From positions 1 to 64,000 of the forward strand of contig NZ_CANMEZ010000001.1 in assembly GCF_947496985.1 (NCBI RefSeq): a DNA stretch of 64,000 bases. Direction: 5' to 3'. Position 1 is the stretch's first letter. Every line of letters begins with the position of its first letter. The translations under genes and the position numbers were made by a program. The notes beneath the pieces were generated by a model. It was not told where the DNA came from and did not search any database. It saw only the letters and a program-made list of their open reading frames with translations. Shown here in pieces: positions 15,604 to 50,689 of the stretch. The stretch is from an uncultured Kordia sp. (GTDB lineage: Bacteria; Bacteroidota; Bacteroidia; Flavobacteriales; Flavobacteriaceae).

Positions 15604-16773
15604 TTAATTTATACTTTTTTTATACGCCATCCACCATCTTTCAGGGATAATTTGATTGCATGCATTCAAATAATCTTGGTGTGTGCAAGGTAATAACGTA
15701 TGTCTTTTTAATTTATTATTCAAACTTGAAATAAATGGTATTTCTATCCACCATCTTTCAGTCTTATTACTTTTATAGAAGATCATCTCTTCTCTATCAT
15801 TTGGCACAATATACTTCAAATAGTCGTCTTTTGAGGTAAAAGGGTAATCATTTACTCGATAATTAACACCTTCTACGAAATACCAGATCATTTGCGCTAT
15901 TAACATTGCTGTAATTTCTTCGTCTTTCGAATTTTTGTATTCAAAGATTCCAAACGATGAAACTTTATCACTTATTCCTGCATAACGACTGATTGCACAG
16001 ATTTCTTTTCCATCCAATCCATTTGGTGATGTATTTTGATTTCCACTTACTTCAGAAGCTTTTACAGCTGATAAATCAATTCCGACAATATCGGCATCAC
16101 GTGTAATAGGTTCCACAATACTTATATCATTTGACACATGACCTAAACGATACGCATCAAACAATAGTTTTTGCATCAAGTCTATTTCTTCTTGTGAATT
16201 GAAATAGGTTTGATATCCAATATTACTATAATTGAACAGATTGTGCGGCGCTTCCATGATAATTTTCCCCATATACGTATGGTTACTTACCGATTGCGTA
16301 ACAGCTCCAAAATCAAACTTACTATCTACATTTACCATATTCACCATTTGCTCAAGATTGTCGTACGCTCTGTACATTGCATACATTAAATCTTGACTTC
16401 CTCCAATAATGATAGGAATGATATTGTTTTTTAGTAACGGCTCCATTATGGTTTTTAAAGCCGCATATGTATCCGTTACAGACGCTCCTTTTTCTAGATT
16501 TCCTAAATCCACAATTTTTTTACTCCAGTTTCCTGGAAATAAGCCGTAAAGTGCTTTCCTAATTTCTAATAGATCAAGTCCTTCACCAAGGTAATTGACA
16601 TCACTACGATTTTCTAGCACTCCTATAATTGCAAATTTTGCTTTGGCAACCGCTTCTGGGATTCCTCCTTTAGAGGTATGTACTTCTATTTGGTTTCCTA
16701 ACGCTTGATTTGGCAATAACTCATTGTGAGCCATTAATAAATCATTGACAGGCGATAAAAATTCGAATTCCAT
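15604..16773 (-). CDS. arginase-fold protein lacking metal ligands (probable pseudoenzyme)
   Basis: A 389-residue relative of arginase/formimidoylglutamase. The three metal motifs are recognisable but changed: G-G-S-Q-D (124-128) where the family has GG-x-H, D-S-K-F-D (150-154) where it has D-A-H-x-D, and G-I-D-L-S-A-V-K-A (231-239) where it has S-x-D-x-D-x-x-D-P. Thus two histidines and two aspartates of the Mn site are lost, and catalysis by the family mechanism is unlikely. The ATG overlaps the topA stop (TAATG). It lies between topA and gldK, which makes a role linked to secretion or gliding possible. Databases may label such proteins formimidoylglutamase; I would not. Confidence 0.8.
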   Translation of the reverse strand: MEFEFLSPVNDLLMAHNELLPNQALGNQIEVHTSKGGIPEAVAKAKFAIIGVLENRSDVNYLGEGLDLLEIRKALYGLFPGNWSKKIVDLGNLEKGASVTDTYAALKTIMEPLLKNNIIPIIIGGSQDLMYAMYRAYDNLEQMVNMVNVDSKFDFGAVTQSVSNHTYMGKIIMEAPHNLFNYSNIGYQTYFNSQEEIDLMQKLLFDAYRLGHVSNDISIVEPITRDADIVGIDLSAVKASEVSGNQNTSPNGLDGKEICAISRYAGISDKVSSFGIFEYKNSKDEEITAMLIAQMIWYFVEGVNYRVNDYPFTSKDDYLKYIVPNDREEMIFYKSNKTERWWIEIPFISSLNNKLKRHTLLPCTHQDYLNACNQIIPERWWMAYKKSIN

Positions 16774-46454: not shown

Positions 46455-46616
46455 ATGTTAAAAAGTATTTCAAAATTAGGAACAGAATTAAGCAAAACTC
46501 AACAACGAAACATTACAGGTGGCATGTGGCCAAGAACCGCTACAGAATGCTATAATTGTGGAGGAGAATGGCACGCACCACTATGTGCATTACCGTATAA
46601 TTCACCTTGTGCGTAA
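46455..46616 (+). CDS. double-glycine-leader cysteine-rich peptide precursor (53 aa)
   Basis: A 53-residue ORF too short for normal gene calling. The N-terminal 23 residues form a Gly-Gly leader of the bacteriocin/natural-product type (M-L-K-S-I-S-K-L-G-T ... Q-R-N-I-T-G-G). The 30-residue core after the GG contains four cysteines (C32, C35, C44, C52), plus W-P-R and G-G-E-W-H, so two disulfides are possible. An A-rich leader precedes the ATG, and a perfect terminator follows 8 bp after the stop, which supports a real transcript. The next gene encodes a C39-like/VKOR/thioredoxin protein. It could be a bacteriocin, a signal peptide or another secreted peptide. Confidence 0.82.
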   Translation: MLKSISKLGTELSKTQQRNITGGMWPRTATECYNCGGEWHAPLCALPYNSPCA

Positions 46617-46624
46617 ACATCAGA

Positions 46625-46650
46625 AGCGAACTTCGGTTCGCTTTTTTTTT
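46625..46650 (+). terminator. intrinsic terminator with TTCG loop after peptide gene
   Basis: A 7-bp stem AGCGAAC / GTTCGCT with a TTCG loop, then a run of nine T after the stem. It lies 8 bp past the peptide stop. Expression of the next gene therefore needs readthrough or its own promoter in 46651-46792. Confidence 0.9.
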
Positions 46651-46792
46651 AAGAATTGTTATCAATTTATAAATTGAACACTTCAAAATCTTAAAAAACC
46701 TCTTTCATACTATCTACCTCAAAAATACTTTCTATATTTAGCTAACTATAACCAAAAAATTAATTTCCCCTACCAAAATTGAAATGAATTAG

Positions 46793-48355
46793 ATGGAACA
46801 CATTATACTTTCTCTACTTAAAACAAATGGCTATTTAGGCATCGATAGCGAACGACTGAATTTGCAATTATTATCACATCATGAGTACCCAAGTTTAAAA
46901 TCAATTACAGATACATTAGATTATTTTGAAATTGACAACTTAGCTGCAACTGTACCAAAAGAAGCATTATCAGAAATGCCAAATTCCTTTTTAGCATTGA
47001 TTAATTCTGAAAGTGGTGATGATGTCGTACTTGCCGAAAAAAAACGCGGTATGGTTCATATTTCACTGCCTGATGATACTAAAGAAAAACTAACAGAAGA
47101 GGCCTTTACGAATCGCTGGACAGGAACTATTATTGCTGTTGAAGAAGTTGAAAAAGTTGTTGACACACAATCTATCAAAGCAGCACTTCCTTATTTTATT
47201 GTAGCCATTGTAGCTTCTGTAAATGTGATATTTAACTTTAGTTTGCCATACTTGTTATATACAGCTCTTACGCTTGTTGGCTTATACATTAGTGTTTTAA
47301 TTATTAGAGAAGATTTAGGAATAAAAAGTAAAGCCGTTGCCAAAGTTTGTGGTGCCATTTCTAAGAATAGTGATTGTGGCGATGTTATTACTACTAAGGG
47401 AAACTTACTCTTCGGATTCATTTCTTTAAGTGATGCTTCGTTTGTATTTTTCTCTGCTTTATTCTTAATATTATCATCTATAGGATTTCACCAAAGTACG
47501 TTACTCACTTTATCTTTAGCAGGAATTCCTATTGTTTTATACGCAATTTACAGACAAGGAATCATACTTAAAAAGTGGTGTGCACTCTGTTTACTAGTTG
47601 CCGGAATTTTAGTTTTACAAACAGGATTGTTAGCAAGCACTTTTTCTTATGAGTGGATACTTGATTGGATATATATTACAAAAGCTGCTGGAATTTTTGC
47701 TTTAATTTATATTGCTTGGAACTATTGTAAAACGTACTGGGAAAGTCATGAAAAACTAGGAAATACTGAACGCGACTTCTTAAAGTTTAAGCGTAACCCT
47801 GAGTTGTTTAAAACCATGCTTCAAGAACAATCTGTTTTGAACCCGAACGTAATTCCCGAACCTTTACGTATTGTTTTTGGAAATCCAAATGGCGCAATAC
47901 AATTACAAGGTGTTACCAATCCGTTATGCGGATTTTGCACGGCTGCTTTTGAATCGTATGATAAATTGTTAAGTTCGTATGGAAATGATATTCGTATGGA
48001 ATTCATTTTTAACGTACCCAAGAAAGCTGAAAATAAGAGCACAAAAATTGCAGCTCGTTTAGTTGATTTGTATCAGCAAGATCCTAAAAAATCATACACC
48101 GCTTTAAAAGAATGGTTTGCCAATAGAGATATTGATGAATGGCATAAGAAATTTGGTTTTTCAGAAAACGCAATGGTAACACAAGTTTTGGACGCACATA
48201 ATGAATGGTCTAATATTAATGATGTACACTATACGCCAGCAAGTATTTTGAATAATAATTTCTTCCCTAAAACATATGAAATAAAAGATTTACCACTATT
48301 TATTCAGGATATGATTTTGGAAACACAACAAGATTCTGAAGAAACTGTTTCATAA
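46793..48355 (+). CDS. C39-like / VKOR / thioredoxin fusion membrane protein
   Basis: A 520-residue fusion. Residues 1-125 follow a C39 peptidase pattern (S-L-K-S-I-T-D-T-L-D-Y-F, W-T-G-T-I-I-A-V-E) but contain no cysteine, and the catalytic-His position reads G-D-D-V-V-L, so it cannot be an active protease. Residues about 130-320 are a vitamin-K-epoxide-reductase membrane domain with loop cysteines C186/C195 and active-site W-C263-A-L-C266. Residues about 335-500 are a thioredoxin/DsbA-like domain with C379-G-F-C382. Such VKOR-Trx fusions form disulfides in exported proteins. The degenerate C39 domain may bind the GG leader of the peptide encoded just upstream. Confidence 0.88.
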   Translation: MEHIILSLLKTNGYLGIDSERLNLQLLSHHEYPSLKSITDTLDYFEIDNLAATVPKEALSEMPNSFLALINSESGDDVVLAEKKRGMVHISLPDDTKEKLTEEAFTNRWTGTIIAVEEVEKVVDTQSIKAALPYFIVAIVASVNVIFNFSLPYLLYTALTLVGLYISVLIIREDLGIKSKAVAKVCGAISKNSDCGDVITTKGNLLFGFISLSDASFVFFSALFLILSSIGFHQSTLLTLSLAGIPIVLYAIYRQGIILKKWCALCLLVAGILVLQTGLLASTFSYEWILDWIYITKAAGIFALIYIAWNYCKTYWESHEKLGNTERDFLKFKRNPELFKTMLQEQSVLNPNVIPEPLRIVFGNPNGAIQLQGVTNPLCGFCTAAFESYDKLLSSYGNDIRMEFIFNVPKKAENKSTKIAARLVDLYQQDPKKSYTALKEWFANRDIDEWHKKFGFSENAMVTQVLDAHNEWSNINDVHYTPASILNNNFFPKTYEIKDLPLFIQDMILETQQDSEETVS

Positions 48356-48390: not shown

Positions 48391-48774
48391 ATGGAAAATT
48401 TAAACAAAGAAAGGCACGGATGTGTTACAACATGGTTAATTTTTATGATCATTGCAAACTCAATTACTGCAATTTTATATCTTTTTGCTGGAGATATGAT
48501 TTCTCAAAATTTCCCTGGCGAAATTTCTACAACAACAATTATTCTTTTAGGAATAATGGGAATCATTAATATAGTCTTCGCCATTCTCCTATTAAACTGG
48601 AATAAAATTGGGTTTTGGGGATTTTTAGTCGTAAGTATCGCTGGATTATTTATTAATCTAAGTCTTGGATTAGGTATAGGACAATCATTATTAGGACTTA
48701 TTGGAATCATAGTCTTATTTGGAGTTTTACAAATTAAGAAAGACAATGTAAGCGCTTGGGATAACTTAGATTAA
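48391..48774 (+). CDS. small four-helix membrane protein
   Basis: A 127-residue protein with four hydrophobic helices (about 12-32, 46-65, 72-91, 95-112). No catalytic motif is seen; a single cysteine is at residue 11. It lies 35 bp after the VKOR fusion gene on the same strand and ends at a shared convergent terminator, so it is likely co-transcribed. An immunity or accessory role for the peptide is conceivable but unsupported by homology. Confidence 0.75.
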   Translation: MENLNKERHGCVTTWLIFMIIANSITAILYLFAGDMISQNFPGEISTTTIILLGIMGIINIVFAILLLNWNKIGFWGFLVVSIAGLFINLSLGLGIGQSLLGLIGIIVLFGVLQIKKDNVSAWDNLD

Positions 48775-48816
48775 AGTTAGGCCAATATTATATAATCAAA
48801 ACATCATAAAATATAT

Positions 48817-48860
48817 AAATTCTGAGTAGACTCAATTATGATTGAATTTACTCAGAATTT
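48817..48860. terminator. bidirectional terminator between convergent genes
   Basis: A 20-bp stem with two mismatches and a TATG loop, left arm starting AAATTCTGAGTA. A/T tracts flank both sides. It lies between the small membrane protein and the CPBP protease. Confidence 0.8.
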
Positions 48861-48873
48861 TAATTATATATTA

Positions 48874-49809
48874 TTAATTAATAGCATTTTCTATGATATA
48901 AGGATGCACGAAACTAGTGTACCTTTTAAATTTCTTCCAATACAAAATCAACAGTATCGCAATTATGTCAAGTCCTATAAATAGAATACTTCCTTCAGGC
49001 CCAAAAACACCACCTGTAAGCAAGTTGTTAGGCATTTCTACACTGATTATAGATGTTTTTGCAATATTACCACTAATAGGAAAACCGAAAATAGCACCTT
49101 GAAAAAGATTCCATGAAAAATGCATTCCTATAGACATACCTAATCGACCAGTTATTAAAAAAGGCAAACACAGCATCATTGCATCTAAACCTAAATTTAT
49201 AGTAGATATAATAGTCGCACCTTCATTTCCTGCATGAGCTATACCGAATAAAGGCGCAATTATAATGAGGATTAAAAGCGCTCGTTTCTTGGCATCTTTC
49301 TTAAGAATTCGTAAAGCTTCATATGCAATATAAAATAGAAAAGCTCTAAAGAATATTTCTTCCACACTGCTTCCTACTATTAATCCGAACATTTCAGCAA
49401 AAAAACCTGTCCAAAAAGAATAATCAAAAGTATAATTTGAAGAATTGACCGCAAAGAAATCTACTATTTTTAAATTCCCAGTGAGATCCATTATTAAGAA
49501 AAATAAAGAAAGTTGAACAACCGAAATGATGAATCCAAAAAAGAATTCTTTCAACCATACTTTATTAAACTTCAATCCATATTTTTTAAAAGATGACTTC
49601 TCTAAAAATTTTATCTGTATCAACAAACTGAATACAACAGACATCAAATATATAGAAGCAGAAATAATTCCTCTTAAAAGGCTTTGACTTAAAACTTCTT
49701 GCAACACTAATTGCAAAGGAATATTTACTAAAAAGGTGATTAACAAAAAGAGGATTAATCGCCATATAGGACGAATTTTATCTTTTGAATTGAAAATAAT
49801 TTTGTGCAT
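48874..49809 (-). CDS. CPBP family intramembrane glutamic protease
   Basis: A 311-residue polytopic protein. The CPBP (CAAX/Abi) motifs are intact: E150-E151-I-F-F-R155, F-G-I-A-H192 and H230-F-S-W-N234. Family members cut substrates within the membrane; in bacteria many serve bacteriocin self-immunity or peptide maturation. It is convergent to the VKOR fusion/small membrane protein pair, so proximity to a GG-leader peptide is suggestive, but its own promoter is separate. Confidence 0.88.
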   Translation of the reverse strand: MHKIIFNSKDKIRPIWRLILFLLITFLVNIPLQLVLQEVLSQSLLRGIISASIYLMSVVFSLLIQIKFLEKSSFKKYGLKFNKVWLKEFFFGFIISVVQLSLFFLIMDLTGNLKIVDFFAVNSSNYTFDYSFWTGFFAEMFGLIVGSSVEEIFFRAFLFYIAYEALRILKKDAKKRALLILIIIAPLFGIAHAGNEGATIISTINLGLDAMMLCLPFLITGRLGMSIGMHFSWNLFQGAIFGFPISGNIAKTSIISVEMPNNLLTGGVFGPEGSILFIGLDIIAILLILYWKKFKRYTSFVHPYIIENAIN

Positions 49810-49906
49810 GCTTAAATTGCTTTTTAATGATTGATGATAAATTAAATCGCAAGGTAAGTCTGTTAGTTTTTTTAAAATAGAATGAAATTAGCCACTTATA
49901 TAAAAA

Positions 49907-50689
49907 TTAGAATTTTCGGATATGCTTTGGATTGTAACCGACATACATTTTGAATATGCGAATCATATGACTATGGTCTGAAAAGCCACAAGCAAAAGCT
50001 ATTTCTGTAATTGACATTTGTGTATGAAGCAAAAAATATAATGCTTTCCGAACCTTAATTTTTCTCATATAATCGCCCAATGAACCATTGAAATATTTTT
50101 TAAAATACTTCGAAATCGTCACTGGATGTACATTTAAAATAAGAGCCAATTCATCTAAAGAAATAAATTCATTCCACCGATCTTCAATTATTTCTTTAAG
50201 CTGTTTTACCCAAATTGGCTTATGAGAAGATGTTTTAGTATTCGCAAATAATGATTTTAACAAAAGTTGGATTGAATTTGCAGTATAAGAATCATTCACT
50301 TGCAATTCGTTATAGATGTATATTAAATCCAAGTAGGCTTCAACACTTCTATTTTCTGATAAATTCAAATCATTAAAATTTACTTCATTTTTAGAAAAGA
50401 AATCATTTTTCAATTCTAAATTAAGGTTTTTGGAAGGAAAGGATGTAAATCTATTTCTATGAATTTCCCCTTGATTATACACCATTATTTTTCCGGAAGA
50501 CACTTGTGTATCTTGTTTTTTTCTAGATTCTAAATTTCCTCCTTGAAGAATTAAAGATAGATGTATATCTTCATGAGAGTGCCAGTCTTCTGAAACAGGT
50601 TTACTATAATTAACCAAAGAAATAGAACAAAAATCCAAATGAAACTTCTCATTTGTTGTCCCTAAAAAAGTATTATATTTTAATTCCAA
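49907..50689 (-). CDS. AraC family transcriptional regulator
   Basis: A 260-residue regulator. The N-terminal cupin-like part has W-H-S-H-E-D-I-H-L-S-L-I-L-Q-G-G and H-R-N-R-F. The C-terminal AraC DNA-binding domain (about 165-260) has two helix-turn-helix units, L-D-E-L-A-L-I-L-N-V-H-P-V-T-I-S-K-Y-F-K and I-T-E-I-A-F-A-C-G-F-S-D-H-S-H. The ligand is unknown. It sits between the CPBP protease and a nuclease, all on the minus strand but with separate gaps, so its target is not obvious. Confidence 0.9.
   Translation of the reverse strand: MELKYNTFLGTTNEKFHLDFCSISLVNYSKPVSEDWHSHEDIHLSLILQGGNLESRKKQDTQVSSGKIMVYNQGEIHRNRFTSFPSKNLNLELKNDFFSKNEVNFNDLNLSENRSVEAYLDLIYIYNELQVNDSYTANSIQLLLKSLFANTKTSSHKPIWVKQLKEIIEDRWNEFISLDELALILNVHPVTISKYFKKYFNGSLGDYMRKIKVRKALYFLLHTQMSITEIAFACGFSDHSHMIRIFKMYVGYNPKHIRKF

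Follow-up and report, generated by a model that had tools for sequence, protein, structure and literature searches.

The window, that is the whole stretch of DNA analysed here, comprises 64,000 nucleotides from an uncultured Kordia sp. (assembly GCF_947496985.1, contig NZ_CANMEZ010000001.1, positions 1-64,000, forward strand). A short gene on the plus strand (46455..46616), recognised by ORF reading, a leader model, and tblastn homologues, encodes a 53-aa precursor peptide of the GG-leader type. Its 23-aa leader (46455..46523, +), read against 223 distinct leaders of relatives, carries L-12, Q-7, I-4, G-2, and G-1 and fits the double-glycine type, with hydrophobic residues at -12 and -4 and GG at -2/-1. 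The 30-aa core (46524..46613, +) contains four cysteines in a pattern common to relatives (C..CGGEW..PLC.LP..SPC), which recurs, by eye, in Kordia, Leptobacterium, Flavobacteriaceae R38, and a Tenacibaculum MAG. The ORF scored E 7.9e-9 against the leader model in a search of its own genome, its own leader being one of the 40 rows from which the model was built. No Pfam or NCBIfam model matched the peptide over cut-off, and nine further peptides compared with NCBIfam (two queries approximate), six of which were also compared with Pfam, gave sub-cut-off matches only; PF14406 and TIGR04194 were among the sub-cut-off matches of the tested peptides. Directly after the stop codon lies an intrinsic terminator-like hairpin (46622..46645, +) of 10 pairs with a T-run; a terminator scan of the region returned two sites, the second being the identical hairpin read on the minus strand, against 1.0 expected from shuffled sequences, and taken alone is weak support. 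The next gene (46793..48355, +) encodes a 520-aa fusion of a C39-like domain, a six-helix VKOR, and a thioredoxin domain. A sequence-only reading of the window had described the 53-residue ORF, its Gly-Gly leader and four-cysteine core, a terminator of its own, and a gap of 176 bp to the fusion gene, and these were all found in place.

Fusion loci were collected by a scan of one genome per species, in which the six closest fusion sequences served as the query, the wider alignment being too diverse. The best 80 of 166 confirmed matches yielded 79 distinct loci, and the aligned set of 79 fusions used below consists of the window and 78 of these loci (L120 was too short and was left out).

The domains of the fusion were delimited with Pfam, the alignment, and an AlphaFold2 model (pLDDT 87.8, pTM 0.65). 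The C39-like domain occupies residues ~1-120 (46793..47152, +; PF03412, hhalign) and is followed by an extra helix, TM0 (residues 126-147; 47168..47233, +), which was placed by AlphaFold2 and hydropathy and precedes the Pfam VKOR match starting at residue 155. The four-helix VKOR core (residues 151-283; 47243..47641, +) contains C186/C195 and C263/C266 and has PDB matches 4nv6, 6wv9, and 3kp9; its match to PF07884 (E 5e-10, 40 bits against a cut-off of 27.5), together with both cysteine pairs, places the protein in the VKOR family. A long helix that includes TM5 (residues 292-333; 47666..47791, +; AlphaFold2, charge and helix analysis) leads to a DsbA/ScsC-like thioredoxin domain (residues 360-515; 47870..48337, +) with C379-G-F-C382 and T481-P482. 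The Pfam Thioredoxin_4 match was below cut-off (E 0.0027, 18.3 bits against 23.2); profile comparison matched this part to solved DsbA-like proteins (1z6m, 4xvw), and Foldseek to ScsC, DsbA, and BdbD proteins. C186, C195, C263, C266, C379, and C382 were invariant in 79 of 79 aligned fusions (from the best 80 of 166 matches). Both the three-domain architecture and the exact positions of these cysteines agree with what had been read from the letters of the window. Among 26 members searched against NCBIfam, the VKOR model NF011480 matched eight at E up to 0.001, and none of the matched models names the fusion as a whole.

The N-terminal domain is related to the C39 peptidase domains of the exporters and has lost their catalytic residues. 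Pfam Peptidase_C39 matched it at E 2e-5 over profile positions 42-130 only, and residues 34-111 aligned to a profile of exporter C39 domains (hhalign probability 93, E 3.5e-7); Foldseek also returned PCAT1, as a whole chain with an rmsd near 31 A and no ranges, to which little weight is given. The Cys/His/Asp triad was present in 31 of 31 extracted exporter C39 domains (30 from the 40 loci with an exporter, plus that of this genome). No cysteine was found within residues 1-33 of any fusion (0/79 aligned sequences, from the best 80 of 166 matches), histidine stood at the aligned triad position in three of 79 and aspartate in 13, all three residues occurred together in none, and the window fusion has none of them. 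The fusions thus lack the triad of Peptidase C39 and have the composition of a C39-like domain (CLD), namely C39 homology without the catalytic cysteine. Since the triad is absent in every fusion, the domain can at most bind and would not cleave. Such binding is plausible because in LahT the leader docks, through -4, -7, and -12, in a groove ~20 A from the active site (available part of PMC6363468), and a catalytically dead C39 domain could therefore still bind a leader. The 223 distinct leaders of relatives carry L-12 in 222, Q-7 in 216, and I/V-4 in 221; that position -7 is Gln here and not, as in LahT, Leu counts against the leader-guided reading.

Leader ORFs near the fusions were called by a fixed leader pattern, on the same strand, with cysteine, and within 2 kb. 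Absence of the small ORF or of its GG motif beside the fusion in relatives had been named as the observation that would speak against a functional pair; the result was strongly the opposite, such an ORF being present in 64 of 79 loci (best 80 of 166 matches) and missing by this pattern from 15. Within 0-1 kb downstream of the fusions, all 104 GG ORFs shared the strand of the fusion, and the background more than 2 kb upstream was 0-0.07 same-strand GG ORFs per kb. Pattern matches upstream of ten Tenacibaculum loci were rejected as precursors, being a fragment that we take for UvrA, and the corresponding 10 of 152 ORFs within 2 kb were dropped before cysteines were counted. The remaining 142 peptides had 4 (71), 6 (42), 8 (13), 5 (8), 7 (7), or 1 (1) core cysteines, that is, an even number in 126 and an odd number in 16; the kept ORF with one core cysteine (L052) is probably also false. 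At 2-10 kb downstream, 101 of 106 had an even, non-zero number of core cysteines, three an odd number, and two none, and nine matches more than 2 kb upstream, counted apart, comprised three even, one odd, and five without cysteine. Cores were diverse and leaders alike across the fusion loci, and as many as eight peptides lay within 2 kb of one fusion (L104). In locus L089, two very similar GG-leader ORFs without cysteine lie 2.7-3.0 kb upstream of the fusion, which indicates that the leader type is not exclusive to cysteine-bearing peptides.

Close relatives preserve the arrangement seen in the window. Eight Kordia-labelled records carry a fusion 72-84% identical to that of the window, with rodA upstream in all eight, as in the window, and the peptide gene, by tblastn, between rodA and the fusion in seven; it was not found by tblastn in the eighth (L042), is broken in two in L046, and is present twice in L044. 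Among six 53-codon copies of the peptide gene, dS exceeded dN in 15 of 15 pairs, and the core had the higher dN in 12 pairs and the leader in two, with one tie; the 54-codon copy of L044 and the copies in L046 and L047 were left out of this comparison. Kordia usually has the peptide gene upstream of the fusion, and most other loci have it downstream. A ninth Kordia-labelled record, the MAG L059, has a fusion only 38% identical to that of the window and probably belongs to another genus.

Fusion and leader also occur together at the level of whole genomes. Of 299 family genomes, 40 had the fusion, and 43 (at E 0.1) or 34 (at 1e-3) had the leader, both scans being taken to cover the identical 299 genomes since their handles agree. 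At 1e-3, 29 genomes had both, five the leader only, 11 the fusion only, and 254 neither (Fisher 3e-26, ignoring kinship); at 0.1 the corresponding numbers were 32, 11, 8, and 248. The 11 of 40 fusion genomes without a leader match and the five of 34 leader genomes without a fusion at 1e-3 are a counterpoint to any reading in which the leader guides the enzyme. Eight of the 11 fusion-only genomes have a distant type of fusion (best E weaker than 1e-55), so that diverged leaders may be missed there. A scan of the phylum gave VKORs in 33 of 148 genomes, with and without a C39-like domain. One locus (L060), labelled Oligoflexales, encodes peptides, a partial exporter, and a fusion that is Flavobacteriaceae-like, and is probably misbinned.

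Divergence of the leader tracks that of the C39-like domain rather than that of the VKOR or thioredoxin domain. Matrix regression of leader distance on the domain distances (64 sequences) gave coefficients of 0.52 for the N domain, 0.15 for VKOR, and 0.02 for thioredoxin, values as high being reached in 0, 179, and 823 of 2000 permutations, respectively. The N domain exceeded VKOR in 470 of 500 bootstraps and thioredoxin in 493 of 500, and a partial Mantel test on a set thinned to 41 sequences had the same sign (0.23, 0 of 2000 permutations). At 0.557, the N domain has diverged a little less than the other two domains (0.586 and 0.622), a difference that may tilt the regression towards it.

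AlphaFold2 and family hydropathy agreed on six helices in the fusion, of which TM0 is the least hydrophobic, and the loops of side B are short. VKORs without a C39-like domain have, by eye, one helix fewer, the extra helix of the fusion preceding the VKOR core. Six helices put the C39-like domain, the VKOR cysteines, and the thioredoxin domain on one side of the membrane in either absolute orientation. A periplasmic location of the C39-like domain was first suspected from the extra helix; the six-helix model and the charge pattern argue against it. Lysine plus arginine per residue is 0.168 on the side of the C39-like domain, the cysteines, and the thioredoxin domain and 0.035 on the other, and basic density was higher on the former side in 79 of 79 fusions (from the best 80 of 166 matches). 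In 75 of 76 anchored fusions (one equal) and in seven of eight fusions from the phylum set (one equal), more basic residues stand just before the CxxC than in the TM2-3 loop, and this sign was shared by just two of 12 VKORs without C39 from the phylum scan, the other ten being opposite; the 12 include the near-identical pairs L138/L139 and L143/L147. Six of the 18 VKORs without C39, three of the 79 fusions, and one of the nine fusions from the phylum set gave no anchor, and L146 and L148 (two of 29 VKOR loci), whose reading frames had been extracted incorrectly or incompletely, were omitted from the charge test. Basic residues favour the cytosolic side of membrane proteins (the positive-inside rule), so the charge pattern predicts that the shared side is the cytosol, and the three domains are probably all cytosolic. 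The charge rule is statistical; under it, disulfide formation is predicted to occur in the cytosol, before the leader is lost, and this fits the pathway because a leader is present only until cleavage. Given that the cytosol is normally reducing, such oxidation would have to be fast or be followed quickly by export. Two standalone VKORs without C39 (L141 and L151) show the reversed charge sign and are possibly further cytosol-facing VKORs.

The best-surviving alternative, which we nevertheless consider unlikely, is that the fusion has ordinary topology, with all three domains in the periplasm and oxidation after export, and that the C39-like domain binds something other than a leader or a peptide still bearing its uncleaved leader. 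Six helices fit either absolute orientation, and known bacterial VKORs form disulfides outside the cytosol, the one known exception being archaeal. Against it stand the basic residues, which favour the shared side in every fusion and the reverse in 10 of 12 VKORs without C39, the intact exporter C39 domains (31 of 31), which would remove the leader in the cytosol, and the divergence of the leader in step with the N domain.

Export appears to be served from elsewhere in the genome. Besides the window fusion and a second fusion, the C39 matches of this genome, four in all, comprise a 735-aa C39-ABC protein and a C39 protein of 200 aa. Only the window fusion falls inside the 64-kb window, in which, as the sequence-only reading had said, there is no C39-ABC exporter gene; an exporter at another locus, on which that reading expected secretion to depend, does exist, namely the C39-ABC gene at L121 6893-9097 (contig 1, 482892-485096), 0.43 Mb from the window fusion, which adjoins an HlyD-like gene and an eight-cysteine GG peptide. 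Searches with these two genes located C39-ABC in 40 of the 79 fusion loci (best 80 of 166 matches) and HlyD in 34, over spans of up to 10 kb on each side of the fusion, some contigs ending sooner. Matches to the leader, 31 with E no higher than 0.002, occur throughout the genome; 30 were fetched and 26 parsed, of which 23 have an even number of core cysteines. To judge from these matches, the fusion probably acts on many leader peptides encoded across the genome rather than on a single one. Neither DsbB nor any VKOR besides the two C39-like fusions was found in this genome.

The frequent proximity of exporters would also fit a C39-like domain that docks the enzyme on the exporter/substrate complex, the exporter choosing the substrate. 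This is improbable in view of the 39 of 79 loci in which no exporter was found in the spans searched, the leader-specific co-divergence of the N domain, and the distant exporter of this genome, although docking needs no linkage. More doubtful still is a role as reductase or isomerase, in which the enzyme would leave the cysteines free or rearrange their bonds: thioredoxin folds serve both directions and ScsC proteins are the top Foldseek matches, but VKOR-linked thioredoxins run towards quinone in known cases, and the cores have even numbers of cysteines. That the fusion is a general oxidase in a chance neighbourhood with unrelated small ORFs is compatible with the peptide gene's own terminator, given which the two genes need not share a transcript, and can be practically dismissed on the strand-specific association, the even cysteine numbers, the exporters in the loci, and the co-occurrence.

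The reading preferred here draws on what was computed, namely the association and co-occurrence of the genes, the loss of the triad, the invariance of the redox cysteines, the pairing of core cysteines, the prediction of six helices, and the asymmetry of charge: the fusion would be a dedicated, cytosol-facing, leader-guided enzyme that forms disulfides in secreted cysteine-rich GG-leader peptides, to which a probability of roughly 0.6 is assigned. The catalytically dead C39-like domain would hold the GG leader of the precursor while the thioredoxin domain (C379/C382) oxidises the core cysteines pairwise, and electrons would pass, in the presumed direction, from thioredoxin to C186/C195, then to C263/C266, and on to the membrane quinone. 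The six helices would keep the three domains together on the same face of the inner membrane, presumably the cytosolic one, so that the peptide is knotted with its leader still attached; a C39-ABC exporter with HlyD might then cut after the GG and export the peptide. The earlier proposal that one polypeptide binds the leader and oxidises the core is supported in this predicted form. For the fuller statement, in which an inverted-topology, quinone-coupled VKOR with a leader-reading pseudo-peptidase forms the disulfides of hypervariable arrays of knotted peptides before export across Bacteroidota, the chances seem evenly balanced. Variable cores arrayed behind a common leader point to bacteriocins, and the peptides are most likely bacteriocin-like.

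Parts of this arrangement are familiar from other systems. The Synechococcus VKOR-thioredoxin fusions (PDB 3kp9, 4nv5) join, as here, a VKOR core and a thioredoxin-like partner in one chain, with five helices and no known C39-like domain. The VKOR of the archaeon Aeropyrum pernix is reportedly (Hibender, in 2017) active in two compartments; topology would there set the compartment, as proposed here, and it is not known to have a C39-like domain. The bacteroidetocins of Bacteroidales (class IIf) have, as described in the accessible part of PMC6671954, a GG leader, four cysteines in types A and B, a gel shift that points to disulfides, an ABC exporter with a double-glycine peptidase domain, and a thiol oxidoreductase gene whose deletion attenuates activity. 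The window resembles them, in gene content and description, in its GG leader, four cysteines, and thiol oxidoreductase gene. Their oxidoreductase is, in the same part of that source, a separate gene adjoining one for a five-TM protein, in contrast to the single fusion here, and unlike in their gene set the exporter lies 0.43 Mb away in this genome, although it is near the fusion in 40 of 79 loci of relatives. Nowhere does the text of PMC6671954 use the terms VKOR, thioredoxin, or C39. The CLDs of HlyB-type exporters are degenerate C39 domains without the catalytic cysteine that tether substrate (PMC6363468, in the part available); they are joined to an ABC transporter, whereas the CLD of the fusion, which has a weak NCBIfam match to TIGR01846, is joined to a redox enzyme. 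Glycocin and sublancin clusters combine a precursor, a PCAT exporter, and dedicated Bdb-type thiol-disulfide enzymes; in the available part of PMC12457901 these are separate, thioredoxin-like proteins with no leader-reading domain seen, in contrast to the fusion. In the preferred reading the fusion would act in the manner of the thiol oxidoreductases from bacteroidetocin and glycocin clusters. The fusion and its topology were not found in the open-licence papers searched, and may be described elsewhere; the available part of PMC4555120 does not contain the words peptidase, C39, bacteroid, or fusion.

If the preferred reading of a cytosolic, leader-guided oxidase is correct, disulfide formation would be steered by a leader and performed in the cytosol, an unusual place for it, which would explain how bacteria without DsbB, such as this one, secrete disulfide-rich peptides, and such an enzyme could be put to use in laboratory strains to produce knotted peptides. 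The fusion would offer a genome-mining handle for a large peptide family, for which no curated model scored over cut-off in the few members tested.

The second fusion of the genome lies at L122 8209-9786, and an eight-cysteine GG peptide with a different leader type is encoded ~6 kb from it on the other strand (16129-16362). The 200-aa C39 peptidase (L002 1333-1932, contig 7) has the triad motifs by eye and an apparent lipoprotein signal, adjoins an apparent metal-type ABC permease, and is possibly an envelope-located C39 protease. An AraC-like neighbour of the window fusion was found by tblastn in two of 79 loci. After the window fusion (48391-50689) are genes for a 127-aa membrane protein and a 311-aa protein, the latter presumably, by its motif, resembling a CPBP-type membrane protease. 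Neither was found by tblastn in the 79 fusion loci (best 80 of 166 matches), and the segment appears to be an insertion that, of the genomes compared, only this one has, and may serve in self-protection.
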